Source of the DNA: Chloroflexota bacterium
GTDB lineage: Bacteria; Chloroflexota; Dormibacteria; Dormibacterales; Dormibacteraceae
DNA: 54,604 nt
Assembly: GCA_005880795.1 (NCBI GenBank)
Contig: VBGP01000015.1
Coordinates: 1-54,604 of the forward strand
Direction: 5' to 3'
The notes beneath the pieces are model-generated. The model had not been told where the DNA came from and ran no database searches. It saw nothing but the letters and a program-made list of their open reading frames with translations. How positions within the stretch are numbered: the first letter of the stretch is position 1; each line of letters starts with the position of its first letter. Positions 30,286-38,638 of the stretch are shown piece after piece. A program made the translations under genes and the position numbers.

Positions 30286-30340
30286 TCCCGGCGAAAGGTT
30301 AGCGACCCGGAACAGCGTGACGGTCGTTTTGGCTAATGAA

Positions 30341-30369
30341 TTGACCTGCCTGGGACCGATGAGTACCAT
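30341..30369 (+). promoter_or_regulatory. Sigma70-type promoter of the flp pilin gene
   Basis: TTGACC (30341-30346) and TACCAT (30364-30369) are separated by 17 bases. The predicted transcription start is near 30376, giving a leader of about 97 bases before the pilin ATG. Confidence 0.6.
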
Positions 30370-30375
30370 CCTCGA

Positions 30376-30472
30376 CCGCGAGAGAGCCCGGTAGCCCGCA
30401 AGAAGCGGGATAGGGCGGCGTCAGACAGGTCAGAAACCTGTAGTTCAGGAAAAAGGAGGTGAAATCGCAGAA
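30376..30472 (+). ncRNA. Structured 5' leader of flp mRNA
   Basis: Two hairpins: CCCGC-AAGAA-GCGGG inside an outer GCCC/GGGC stem (30386-30416, with an asymmetric internal loop GGUAG/AUA), and ACAGGT-CAGAA-ACCTGT (30425-30441). A strong AAGGAGGTGA Shine-Dalgarno (30453-30462) follows in unpaired A-rich sequence. Known c-di-GMP riboswitch consensus segments were looked for and not found. It could simply stabilise the mRNA. Confidence 0.45.
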
Positions 30473-30649
30473 ATGTTGAGCCTTTACTGGAAGCTTCGGA
30501 GCCTTACGACCCGTCAGGAAGGCCAGGGCATGGTTGAGTACGCCCTGATCCTCGTCCTCGTTTCGATCGTCGTCATCGTGATCCTTCTTACGATGGGCAA
30601 CCAGATCAAGAACGTGTTCTCGAACGTCGTAGCAGCCCTCGGAGCGTAG
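30473..30649 (+). CDS. flp: Flp-type major pilin
   Basis: A 58-residue class III prepilin. It has a short basic leader (MLSLYWKLRSLTTRQEG) and then QGMVEYALILVLVSIVVIVI, a hydrophobic helix with the Glu-Tyr pair of Flp pilins. Cleavage after Gly17 puts Glu at position +5, as the family requires. The C-terminal tail NQIKNVFSNVVAALGA is short, so this is a minimal pilin. AAGGAGGTGA lies about 10 bases upstream. It has its own promoter and is followed by a strong terminator, consistent with high expression relative to the assembly genes behind it. Confidence 0.93.
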   Translation: MLSLYWKLRSLTTRQEGQGMVEYALILVLVSIVVIVILLTMGNQIKNVFSNVVAALGA

Positions 30650-30674
30650 AGCCCACGTAACAGCACCTTCAAAG

Positions 30675-30703
30675 GAGAGCCCCGCGAGGGGCTCTCTTTC
30701 TTT
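30675..30703 (+). terminator. Intrinsic terminator after flp
   Basis: A perfect 9-bp stem GAGAGCCCC / GGGGCTCTC around a GCGA tetraloop, followed by TTTCTTT. It lies 26 bases after the pilin stop. Partial read-through would give the downstream assembly genes a lower level than the pilin. Confidence 0.9.
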
Positions 30704-30739
30704 ACAGCGAAGTGGGGAGAAGATCGCGGTTCCCATGGT

Positions 30740-30745
30740 TACAAT
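30740..30745 (+). promoter_or_regulatory. Possible -10 box for cpaB (TACAAT)
   Basis: TACAAT lies 40 bases upstream of the cpaB start and beyond the terminator, where a second promoter would be useful. No good -35 box sits 17 bases upstream, so it is weak. The remainder of 30650-30784 holds only the terminator and the cpaB Shine-Dalgarno (GGAGGTGA). Confidence 0.35.
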
Positions 30746-30784: not shown

Positions 30785-31657
30785 TTGGCCGTCGCACCTG
30801 CTGCTACAAGACCCCGTCCTGGCGGTGGTCGTCTGTTCATCATCGTCGGCGTTTTACTCGCCATCGTTGCGTTCGCCGCAGTGTTCCTGCTCTCCAGCGC
30901 AACAGGCGGCGGTGGCATCGGCGGACCGAACACATCGGTCGTGATCGCCAAGCAGGCGATCCCGCTCCGCCATCAAATCACCTCGGCGGACATCGAGATA
31001 GCGAAAGTCTCGATCAACGGCAACGGCTCGCTGACCAACACCTACGCCACGACCACTGACGTGCTGAATCTCATCTCCGAGATCAACATCACGAAGGGCT
31101 CTGTGGTCACGTCCGACATGCTGGCGCGGGACATCAGCCTGGTGCCCGCCGGCGCAGCCCCCGCTTACCTACCGCTGGCCAAGGGCTACGTCGCGATCAC
31201 CATTCCCACTGCCGAGCAGCAGGGCGTCGCGGGTCACATCAGCGTTGGCGACTACATCACGGTCATCTCGTCCGCCAACCTCACGCTCTTCAACACCGCT
31301 GGGCAGCAGCAGGGCCCGGTGCGGCAGGTGAGCAAGACCGTCTTCTTCAACCTCCGGGTGATCGGCCTCGGTCCCGCGTCCGCCGGTGTTCAACCGGCTA
31401 ACGGCAGTGGAGGCACGACTTCGGCGGCCGCATCCAGCGGTGTGACGTCGAGCCTTACCGTCGAGGTCACGCAGTGCGACGCCGAGTTCCTGACCTGGTT
31501 TTTGGCCAACACTCAGGTGCGCTACACCCTCGAGTCGTACAAGGACTACTCGACCGCTCCAACGGACAACCAGGACACGACGTGTGCAACCATCCAGGCC
31601 GCCGGAGGAGTGACCAACAAGCAGGTGGACGCGAAATACAAGTTCACCGCGCTCTAA
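30785..31657 (+). CDS. cpaB: Flp pilus assembly protein CpaB/RcpC
   Basis: 290 residues. One N-terminal membrane helix (RLFIIVGVLLAIVAFAAVFLL) precedes an extracytoplasmic SAF-like domain starting TSVVIAKQAIPLRHQITSADIEI, and VPAGAAPAYLPLAKGYVAITIP is followed by a VGDYITVI segment typical of the family. In Gram-negatives it supports the outer-membrane channel; in a monoderm-type cell its role would be at the membrane or wall. A Ser/Gly/Thr-rich linker and two Cys (TQCDAEF, DTTCAT) lie near the C-terminus. TTG start with GGAGGTGA upstream. Confidence 0.88.
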   Translation: MAVAPAATRPRPGGGRLFIIVGVLLAIVAFAAVFLLSSATGGGGIGGPNTSVVIAKQAIPLRHQITSADIEIAKVSINGNGSLTNTYATTTDVLNLISEINITKGSVVTSDMLARDISLVPAGAAPAYLPLAKGYVAITIPTAEQQGVAGHISVGDYITVISSANLTLFNTAGQQQGPVRQVSKTVFFNLRVIGLGPASAGVQPANGSGGTTSAAASSGVTSSLTVEVTQCDAEFLTWFLANTQVRYTLESYKDYSTAPTDNQDTTCATIQAAGGVTNKQVDAKYKFTAL

Positions 31658-31666
31658 CAAAAATCA

Positions 31667-33151
31667 ATGGGGCTCCTCGATAGGGTCAAGCAGAACCAGA
31701 CGGTTCCACCGGCGGGACCGGCCGGAAACGGTCCCGCCGCCACAGCGACTCTTCCAGGGGCCACGCCCTACACGCCGCAGGCGCCGGTAGCTCAACCGGC
31801 CCCCCCCGCGCCTGCGGCGCAATCGCTCTCCCAGCGCGCCGGCGCCGTGGGTGCCGAGCTGACGCCCGCCTTCACCGCGGCGAAGGTGCAGATCCACTCC
31901 AAGCTGATCGAGAAGTTCGCGGACGAGATCGATTCCAGCAACAAGGCTGGAGTCCGCGAAAAGATCCTCGAGCTCGCCGAGGAGTACTTCCGCTCCACGG
32001 CGATGACGATGACCAAGAACGACAAGGAGCGCCTTGTCGACTCGGTCCTCGACGACGTGCTGGGCCTTGGCCCCCTCGAGGCTCTGCTCGCAGACGCGAG
32101 CATCACCGAGATCATGGCCAACCACCCAAAGCAGATCTATGTCGAGAAAAGCGGCGAGCCGATCCTCTCCTCGGTCACGTTCGAGTCGGAACGCCAGATG
32201 CGCCAGGTCATCGACCGAATCGTGAGCCTGGTCGGCCGGCGCGTCGACGAGTCGACCCCCATCTGTGACGCGCGCCTGAAGGATGGCTCGCGTGTCAACG
32301 TGGTCATCCCGCCCATTGCGCTCAAGGGTCCCGCGCTGACGATTCGAAAGTTTGCGAAGGAGAAGTGGGGCCCGGCCGACATCGTCAACCGGTTCAAGTC
32401 CTCGAGCCCGGAGATCATGACGTTCCTGCGCTCTTGCGTACGAGCGCGCCTCAACATCCTCGTCTCCGGAGGCACCGGCTCAGGTAAGACCACGCTGCTC
32501 AACATCCTGTCCTCGTTCATCCCCGAGAACGAGCGCCTCATCACGTGCGAGGATGCCGCTGAGCTGCAACTGCAACAGCCGCACTGGATCCAGCTCGAGT
32601 CGCGTCCGCCCAACGTCGAGGGCAAGGGCGCCGTGCCGATTCGCGAGCTGGTCAAGAGCTGTCTGCGTATGCGACCGGACCGCATCATCGTCGGTGAGTG
32701 CCGTGGCGGTGAGGCCCTCGACATGCTCCAGGCCATGAACACGGGCCACGATGGATCGATGTCCACGCTTCACGCCAACAACCCGAAAGAGGCCCTTGTC
32801 CGTCTCGAGACGCTGGTCCTCCAGGCGGGCCAGGACCTGCCTTCGCGGGCCATCCGCGAAACCATCGGGTCCGCGATCCACCTGATCGTCCAGCAGTCCC
32901 GCCTGCGTGGTGGTATCCGGCGCATCGTGAGCGTGGCGGAGATCACCGGGATCAAGGACGGCGAGGTGCAGTTCCAGGAGCTCTTCACGTTCAAGCAAGT
33001 GGGCGTGAACGCCGAGGGCAAAGCCGTCGGTTATCACACCGGGACCGGCCTCTTGCCGATGCGCATGGAACACCTTCGAGCTGAGGGTGAGGATGTGCCG
33101 GAACAGATCTTTGCGACCGCCAAGCAACCATCGCCGGACAAGCTGTACTGA
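31667..33151 (+). CDS. cpaF: Tad pilus assembly ATPase (CpaF/TadA)
   Basis: 494-residue secretion-superfamily ATPase powering pilus assembly. The first ~70 residues are Pro/Ala-rich and poorly conserved, followed by the helical N-domain (LGLGPLEALLADASITEIMANHPKQIYVEK). Walker A is SGGTGSGKTTLLNIL, the Asp box CEDAAELQL, Walker [17 protein letters not shown], and the His box STLHANNPKEAL. All catalytic motifs are present. ATG, 9 bases after cpaB; AAAAATCAATGG is not a strong Shine-Dalgarno, suggesting coupling. Compare the second copy at 37502. Confidence 0.94.
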   Translation: MGLLDRVKQNQTVPPAGPAGNGPAATATLPGATPYTPQAPVAQPAPPAPAAQSLSQRAGAVGAELTPAFTAAKVQIHSKLIEKFADEIDSSNKAGVREKILELAEEYFRSTAMTMTKNDKERLVDSVLDDVLGLGPLEALLADASITEIMANHPKQIYVEKSGEPILSSVTFESERQMRQVIDRIVSLVGRRVDESTPICDARLKDGSRVNVVIPPIALKGPALTIRKFAKEKWGPADIVNRFKSSSPEIMTFLRSCVRARLNILVSGGTGSGKTTLLNILSSFIPENERLITCEDAAELQLQQPHWIQLESRPPNVEGKGAVPIRELVKSCLRMRPDRIIVGECRGGEALDMLQAMNTGHDGSMSTLHANNPKEALVRLETLVLQAGQDLPSRAIRETIGSAIHLIVQQSRLRGGIRRIVSVAEITGIKDGEVQFQELFTFKQVGVNAEGKAVGYHTGTGLLPMRMEHLRAEGEDVPEQIFATAKQPSPDKLY

Positions 33152-37462: not shown

Positions 37463-37501
37463 TTGGCGGTCGGTTATCAACTCGGAGGGGAGGCTCGCCG
37501 A

Positions 37502-38638
37502 ATGGCAGTCCGGATCCCAGGTATCAACATCGATGAGTACTATCAGCAGCTCGGGCCGATCGAGCCCCTGATCCGCGACGACCGCGTAACCGAGGTCATG
37601 GTCAACGGCAGCGACCATGTGTACGTCGAAATGGCCGGCAAGGTCGTCCTCACCAACATCAAGTTCGTCGACGAGGACCAGCTCCTCAACGTGATCCAGT
37701 TCATCGTCCGGACGGTGGGCCGCCGCATCGACGAACGCTCACCCCTTTGCGACGCGCGTTTGGCGGACGGGTCCCGTGTCAACGCCGTGATCAGACCGCT
37801 CGCCTTGAACGGCCCGCTGCTCACCATCCGCAAGTTCTCACGCGACCCCTACCAGGTCGAAGACCTGATCCGTTTCGGTACGTGTAATGAATTTGGTTTC
37901 GGATTCCTGAAGGCCGCGGTGCTCTCCAAGGCCAACATCATCGTCTCGGGGGGAACCGGCACCGGCAAGACCACGTTCCTCAACGTTCTGTCCGGATTCA
38001 TTCCGGTCGAGGACCGCATCGTGACGATCGAGGACGCCGCTGAGCTTCAGCTGCACCAGGAGCACGTGTGCCGCCTGGAGACGCGGCCGAAGGACATCAA
38101 CGGCGAAGGCGAGATCACGATCCAGCGACTGGTCATCAACTCGCTGCGTATGCGCCCGGAGCGGATCGTCGTAGGTGAGTGTCGTGGTGGAGAGGCGCTC
38201 GACATGCTCCAGGCCATGAACACCGGCCACGACGGTTCGATGACCACCCTCCATGCAAACAGCCCACGCGACGGCCTCGCGCGTCTCGAGACGCTAGTCC
38301 TGATGGCCGGCGTGGACCTTCCCGTGCGCGCGATCCGCAACCAGGTCGCGAGCGCGATCAACCTGATCGTCCAGCTCAACCGCCTCCGCGACGGATCGCG
38401 CAAGGTGACCGCGGTCAGTGAGATCGTCGGCATGGAGCAAGACGTGATCACGATGCAGGACATCTTCGTGATGGAGCAGAAGGGCGCGACGCCGGAAGGC
38501 AAGGTCATCGCGGAGTTCAAGCCGACCGGACTCCGGCCGAAGATCCTGGACCGAATGTTCTCCCAGGGCATCCCGCTGCCGAAGGAGATCACGGCTCTGT
38601 TCCCGGCGCCGCCGGGATACAAGCCCTCCGGCCGCTAG
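37502..38638 (+). CDS. Second CpaF/TadA-type ATPase
   Basis: 378 residues, lacking the Pro/Ala-rich leader of the copy at 31667. Motifs are intact: [34 protein letters not shown] (Walker A), [30 protein letters not shown] and [12 protein letters not shown]. The C-terminus ([20 protein letters not shown]) is typical of stand-alone CpaF proteins that lie apart from tad operons in Actinobacteria and Chloroflexota. It could energise a second pilus or secretion system or supplement the first. ATG with CGGAGGGG upstream at a longish spacing. Confidence 0.92.

Follow-up and report, generated by a model that had tools for sequence, protein, structure and literature searches.

The window analysed here, a stretch of 54,604 nucleotides from a Chloroflexota soil bacterium (family Dormibacteraceae), is contig 55 of a 217-contig, 3.2-Mb genome, and it carries a compact Tad locus built around an flp pilin gene. 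The product of this gene matches the Flp_Fap profile PF04964 with 41.2 bits, above the cut-off of 32.2, and the genes behind it match, in this order, PF16976 (CpaB/RcpC), PF00437 (T2SSE ATPase) and PF00482 twice (T2SSF), which is the composition of a Tad/Flp locus. A preliminary description of this DNA had recognized a self-contained pilin unit ahead of cpaB, with a well-spaced TTGACC/TACCAT promoter, a strong Shine-Dalgarno sequence (SD), a 58-residue pilin and a terminator, and all of these parts, the last of them as a stem-loop, were recovered in the analysis and found to be conserved in orthologs (Table 1). The feature reaches past the span then given to it (30341-30703), as far as a -10-like box in front of cpaB, and two of its properties were absent from that description, namely a motif of the 3' UTR that is complementary to the SD and a constraint on synonymous sites of the pilin ORF. 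As for the surroundings, a second T2SSE-type ATPase gene (37463-38638) is situated near the one within the Tad cluster (31667-33151), past a DUF192 gene and a zinc-ribbon/phosphoribosyltransferase gene. An antisense ORF on the minus strand (30299-30736) is unlikely, because the leaders of relatives differ by indels.

Table 1. Features of the flp pilin unit and its downstream boundary (positions in the window).
Feature	Position	Strand	Basis
Sigma-70-like promoter TTGACC-N17-TACCAT (TTGACC 30341-30346, 17-nt spacer, TACCAT 30364-30369)	30341..30369	+	Motif scan; kept in orthologs
Hairpin 1, CCCGC-AAGAA-GCGGG	30395..30409	+	Fold; weak support
Leader element, first half, GCAAGAA	30398..30404	+	Conservation in orthologs
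Leader element, second half, CGTC	30419..30422	+	14 nt past GCAAGAA; conservation
Hairpin 2, ACAGGT-CAGAA-ACCTGT	30425..30441	+	Fold; nearly invariant in genus, unsupported outside
Shine-Dalgarno sequence GGAGGTG	30455..30461	+	Sequence; ortholog leader alignment
flp pilin, 58 aa (PF04964)	30473..30649	+	ORF and profile match
3' UTR motif CACCTTC	30664..30670	+	Complements SD, 7 bp with one G-U; invariant
Terminator-like stem-loop, 12 bp, GCGA loop, then TTTCTTTA	30672..30699	+	Fold; tail tally
TACAAT, -10-like box of a probable separate cpaB promoter	30740..30745	+	Ortholog conservation
cpaB/rcpC (PF16976), first gene of the machinery	30785..31657	+	Profile match

Pilins were found by protein search in all 42 genomes of the family. 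The loci compared were taken from the best 30 pilin matches and 20 chosen regions, with the weaker pilin copies of these genomes only partly covered. The parts of the unit recur in 29 distinct close ortholog loci of seven genera; a diverged class-A set adds six loci (L115-L120) from four further genera, two of these loci being nearly identical, and 22 paralogous pilin copies served for comparison. The ortholog sequences (n = 28) are related and hence not independent. Many of the paralogous pilins (G000 C163:38637 and relatives, L121-L134) have a distinct conserved upstream block of their own, TTACAAACA-TTGAG ... TTAATGAAAGCTGAA, the TTAATGAAAGCTGAA part being present in 10 of the 22 copies. 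At one further locus (L137, genome G003, contig 132) the leader and the 3' UTR are there and the pilin frame is without its first half, which represents either an assembly collapse or a real deletion. The name Dormibacter does not occur among the matches listed in a search of open papers, which is thin evidence of absence.

The promoter is the sole sigma-70-like site detected between 29500 and 31500, with 9 of 12 consensus matches where shuffled sequences lead to an expectation of 0.3 sites. TTGACC is retained in 28 of the 29 ortholog loci and the hexamers stand 17 nt apart in 19 of them and 18 nt apart in 10, so that the site has the two conserved hexamers at a distance of 16-18 nt that define promoters of the sigma-70 type. 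The pattern TA-N2-AT is present in 29/29 orthologs, yet the same pattern had served to locate the box. The length of the leader, 97 nt, depends on a transcription start that is assumed, not mapped.

Behind the pilin, the GC-rich stem-loop (one G-U among its 12 bp) is a strong structure, matched in stability by only 2 of 200 shuffles (z -3.07). It had been described as a perfect terminator, which it is not, since its tail TTTCTTTA is T-rich (6 T in 8 bases) without a clean T run. The corresponding tails of 28 orthologs contain 3-6 T, and in 10 of them the tract is weak (3-4 T of 8), so that read-through is possible there. The stem-loop was not listed by a consensus terminator scan, we think because the T run lies partly inside the stem. 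In the diverged loci, too, a stem-loop is present, and of the 8 bases after it 5-7 are T in L115-L119 and 4 in L120. This is a homology argument in favour of a terminator, and we regard the structure as a candidate intrinsic terminator at which transcription would putatively stop. TACAAT precedes cpaB in all 28 orthologs with enough sequence and in none of the six diverged loci within 200 nt. Within 30714-30745, an imperfect inverted repeat is also present upstream of this box; it reads GGGGAC..GTCCCC in many relatives, its arms vary between some species, and it may be the operator of a promoter that lacks a clear -35 element.

This architecture suggests that the sigma-70-like promoter would give rise to a short mRNA of about 320 nt ending at the GC-rich stem-loop, and that transcription of cpaB and the assembly genes would restart from a separate promoter, whereby the output of pilin could exceed that of the machinery. 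An insulated pilin unit permitting such an excess is the ordinary and likely reading of the locus, and the expectation of much more pilin than machinery, as voiced in the preliminary description, is consistent with the conserved promoter, SD and stem-loop and with TACAAT before cpaB. The same mRNA would also bear two lineage-specific cis signals, one in each UTR.

The signal of the 3' UTR, which is new in the present analysis, is the heptamer CACCTTC between the stop codon and the stem. It is present in 28/28 orthologs, and its last six bases, ACCTTC, are retained in 33 of the 34 class-A loci (L116 being the one without them), though the remaining UTR differs; they follow none of the 22 paralogous pilins and would turn up in about 1.7% of 40-nt segments taken from the loci compared. 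Shortly before GAGAGCCC, ACCTTC is found at 53 places in the family, 34 of which are the flp site and the other 19 of which are close to the reversed-control count of 16. The duplex CACCTTC:GGAGGTG amounts to -11.2 kcal/mol, and the helix between the SD and the 3' UTR was chosen by RNAalifold for 28 whole transcripts with all of its pairs invariant. Because both sides are invariant, covariation cannot test this helix, and the SD has independent reasons to be conserved. The mean predicted probability of this pairing is 0.62 in the native transcripts and 0.39 when the ORF's synonymous codons are permuted (12 permutations per ORF, UTRs fixed), with the native value being higher in 20 of 28 orthologs, and the alternative pairing partners of the SD are minor. 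The prediction stays below 0.35 in 10 of the 28 orthologs, and among four diverged loci with ACCTTC that were tested it is about zero in L115, L119 and L120 and 0.75 in L117. As in the icaR type of control, the locus has a conserved 3' UTR motif that is the complement of its own mRNA's SD, and the complementarity, conservation and predicted fold together suggest a function in the control of translation: within a completed mRNA, CACCUUC would pair with GGAGGUG, and this would slow new rounds of initiation or alter decay, acting as a fold-back brake on a protein that is probably made in great amounts.

The pilin ORF itself is under a strong synonymous-site constraint, far above that of cpaB, with fourfold-degenerate sites agreeing in 74% of comparisons for the pilin and 45% for cpaB (all pairs, 26 loci). 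Several codons seldom used in cpaB are nevertheless invariant in 28/28 pilins (GTA53, CTT38, CTT39, GTT21, GAA16 and CGT14), GTA making up 2.4% of the Val codons of cpaB. Among the paralogs, CTT is found at codon 38 in 21 of 22 copies and GTA at codon 53 in none of the 22. Compared with their synonymous permutations, the native ORFs form slightly less stable folds (mean z +1.1), and the mRNA as a whole is therefore not selected for a stable fold. A helix between codons 13-18 and 37-42, predicted within the ORF and without covariation, was rejected as the cause of the rare codons and is not claimed here, because CTT38 is also present in 21 of the 22 paralogs, which differ upstream. Pairing of the leader sequence GCAAGAA with codons 38-40, noticed by eye, was rejected as well, three leader variants being uncompensated in the ORF.

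One alternative is that flp is a plain insulated pilin gene, whose UTR motifs serve mundane needs such as the formation of mRNA ends or stability and whose SD complementarity is coincidental. Every ordinary part (promoter, SD, pilin, terminator) is indeed present and conserved, a full 7-nt complement of the SD is not so rare, arising in 1.4% of shuffles of the 26-nt UTR piece, and three of the four diverged loci tested are not predicted to pair. Coincidence accounts less readily for the retention of ACCTTC in class-A loci amid a changing UTR and its absence after the paralogs, for a choice of codons in the pilin ORF that favours pairing of the SD with the 3' UTR, and for the rigid spacing of the leader blocks considered next, and we give this explanation a chance well short of even.

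In the leader alignment, the blocks GCAAGAA and CGTC and the SD region are invariant amid variable sequence. GCAAGAA is exact in 26 of the 29 orthologs and carries one change, within its last two bases, in the other three; CGTC is kept in 28 and reads CGTT in one. The two blocks are separated by 14 nt in 28 orthologs and by 15 nt in one, the spacer sequence being free, while GCAAGAA is located at a variable 24-31 nt from the -10 box. A search with the leader pattern gave one match at the pilin in each of 30 of the 42 family genomes, plus an extra match in genome G008, and none with the reversed control, while the bipartite motif is absent upstream of all 22 paralogous pilins and CGTC is not retained at the corresponding place in most diverged loci. 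A looser pattern matched in 48 genomes out of 400 in the phylum, family members counted in, and the strings outside the family, judged by eye, look scattered and are without the block structure. Across the 42 genomes the bipartite motif is neither rarer nor commoner than chance, so that what is conserved is solely its position ahead of the pilin. On these comparisons we accept that the leader holds a real, conserved cis element specific to this pilin. A regulatory element in the leader had been proposed before on the strength of two stacked hairpins; a conserved element is indeed there, in the form of the short bipartite motif GCAAGAA-N14-CGTC, with the hairpins being at best weakly supported.

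The geometry of the two blocks, which we take to be either ECF-like (GCAAGAA-N14-CGTC) or FliA/WhiG-like (CAAG-N16-CG), raises the question of a second promoter, read by an alternative sigma factor and providing regulated expression besides that from the sigma-70-like start. Such a promoter would be expected to display a pair of short, invariant and rigidly spaced blocks with a free spacer and a variable distance from the -10 box, as is seen here, and a FliA_WhiG model has matches in all 42 family genomes, all of them below the cut-off and some of them surely other sigma factors. There is also a precedent in Rubrobacter, where WhiG has been proposed to control type IV pili (PMC8325347, in excerpt). 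Against it, the exact motif occurs at 89 places in the 42 genomes, flp sites counted, and its reversed control at 131, while the one-mismatch form occurs at 78 and its control at 82 (three genomes); as neither form exceeds its reversed control, a second promoter with a regulon was rejected. Furthermore, CGTC is missing from its place in most diverged loci, and the block is unlike the flagellar consensus given in the excerpted source (PMC8325347), having GCAAGAA and GGCGTCAG where FliA/WhiG promoters have TAAA at -35 and GCCGATAA at -10. A second promoter in the leader thus appears doubtful. The same searches brought up a GCAAGAACCAAGCGGCCCGAACGTC-like sequence at eight places in genome G018, perhaps a mobile element.

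The leader has also been considered as an RNA structure, in which GCAAGAA would be the loop of a hairpin bound by a protein or a small RNA controlling the translation or stability of the pilin mRNA. The 97-base leader (30376-30472) does fold as the preliminary description had it, with both hairpins present and 1 of 200 shuffles as stable (z -2.74), and it is the covariation and Rfam support that fails to appear clearly. Covariation among relatives, which had been put forward as a check on the leader, is not clear. The RNAalifold consensus of 15 leaders of the genus includes no compensatory change in 16 pairs and chooses another register. A structure drawn by hand from L009, with both hairpins in it, has 5 compensatory pairs where shuffles average 2.9, and as 45 of 500 shuffles reach 5, it scarcely exceeds them. 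When the arms around GCAAGAA were compared with arms swapped between species, none of 5000 swaps was as good over all 29 orthologs; two versions of the test gave 27 and 34 of 5000 within the genus and 950 and 165 of 5000 in other genera, the values 34 and 165 belonging to the local hairpin, whose own arms beat swaps, and the 950 to the duplex test, which is null outside the genus, where stem positions differ. For the 5'-most hairpin, 27 of 5000 swaps were as good over the pooled 29, 1545 within the genus and 3310 in other genera, and for hairpin 2 the corresponding numbers are 66, 4322 and 2646, its own arms pairing no better than swapped ones outside the genus; the pooled values of these two are probably clade differences, because nothing is seen within the genus or in other genera. 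Other arm limits gave 3, 7 and 16 of 5000 for the three helices, a much weaker 252 of 5000 for a wider choice of the first helix over all 29, and 1125 of 5000 for a control pair of regions. Covarying-helix results across relatives are thus weak for the first hairpin and none is clear for the second, and with swap tests inflated by relatedness we consider a bound leader hairpin rather unlikely. Pilus genes are often under c-di-GMP control, but a c-di-GMP or other known riboswitch is highly improbable and was rejected, as there is no conserved multi-helix core, and the leader and 14 relative loci match no Rfam 15 family at the gathering score, the only matches being tRNAs that lie elsewhere, with a permissive search yielding chance-level matches only.

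The pilin unit is real and conserved and its main logic is ordinary, with two unexplained family-specific UTR signals added to it. We lean, without great assurance, toward flp being an insulated single-gene transcription unit of a Tad-type pilus that has the CACCUUC fold-back brake and the leader element on top. A further, more speculative extension is that the whole family controls its pilus subunit, likely to be among its most abundant surface proteins, by a short self-closing mRNA whose codons have been tuned against competition of the ORF with closure. On this tentative reading of a self-closing mRNA, the heptamer just before the terminator would mask the SD once transcription is done, as a compact brake of the icaR type on a structural gene. 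Many pilins are needed per assembly machine, and this is usually explained by promoter strength or by a terminator; the comparative evidence presented here points to further signals, specific to this gene, in its 5' and 3' UTRs and in the synonymous choices among its 58 codons, on an mRNA small enough for full testing in vitro.

The idea of a terminator between pilin and machinery is already known from the tad locus of Aggregatibacter actinomycetemcomitans, for which Kram et al. in 2008 reportedly described "a termination cascade", a terminator-like structure between the pilin and machinery genes being said to cause their unequal dosage. Both loci have the flp pilin first and a terminator-like structure before the machinery genes, whereas cpaB here has its own conserved -10 box, and the leader and 3' UTR elements are peculiar to this Dormibacterota family. 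In Variovorax paradoxus EPS, a transcriptome-based prediction places the tad genes in three distinct transcripts, with the pilin and prepilin peptidase acting apart from the other tad genes; pilin and peptidase are on one transcript there, and an antisense RNA has been described (PMC7494200, in the portion available), whereas here the pilin stands alone, as judged from sequence. The RsiG-(c-di-GMP)-WhiG system of Rubrobacter, as far as the excerpt of PMC8325347 goes, is similar in having two short boxes, which there are alternative-sigma promoters of pilus genes; the motif here mismatches TAAA / GCCGATAA and has no visible regulon, and the sigma factors found score under the FliA/WhiG cut-off. 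The closest parallel to the fold-back is the icaR mRNA of Staphylococcus aureus, in which UCCCCUG of the 3' UTR has been experimentally proven to pair with the SD of the same mRNA (PMC3868564, partial text). Both systems oppose a short 3' UTR motif to their own SD, UCCCCUG there and CACCUUC here, but icaR has a long 3' UTR and a pairing established at the bench, whereas the flp motif lies in a short UTR immediately before the terminator of a structural pilin gene and its pairing is predicted from sequence. If true, the fold-back would extend translation control of the icaR type, between the 5' and 3' UTRs, to a gene for a structural protein, in a phylum that has received little study.
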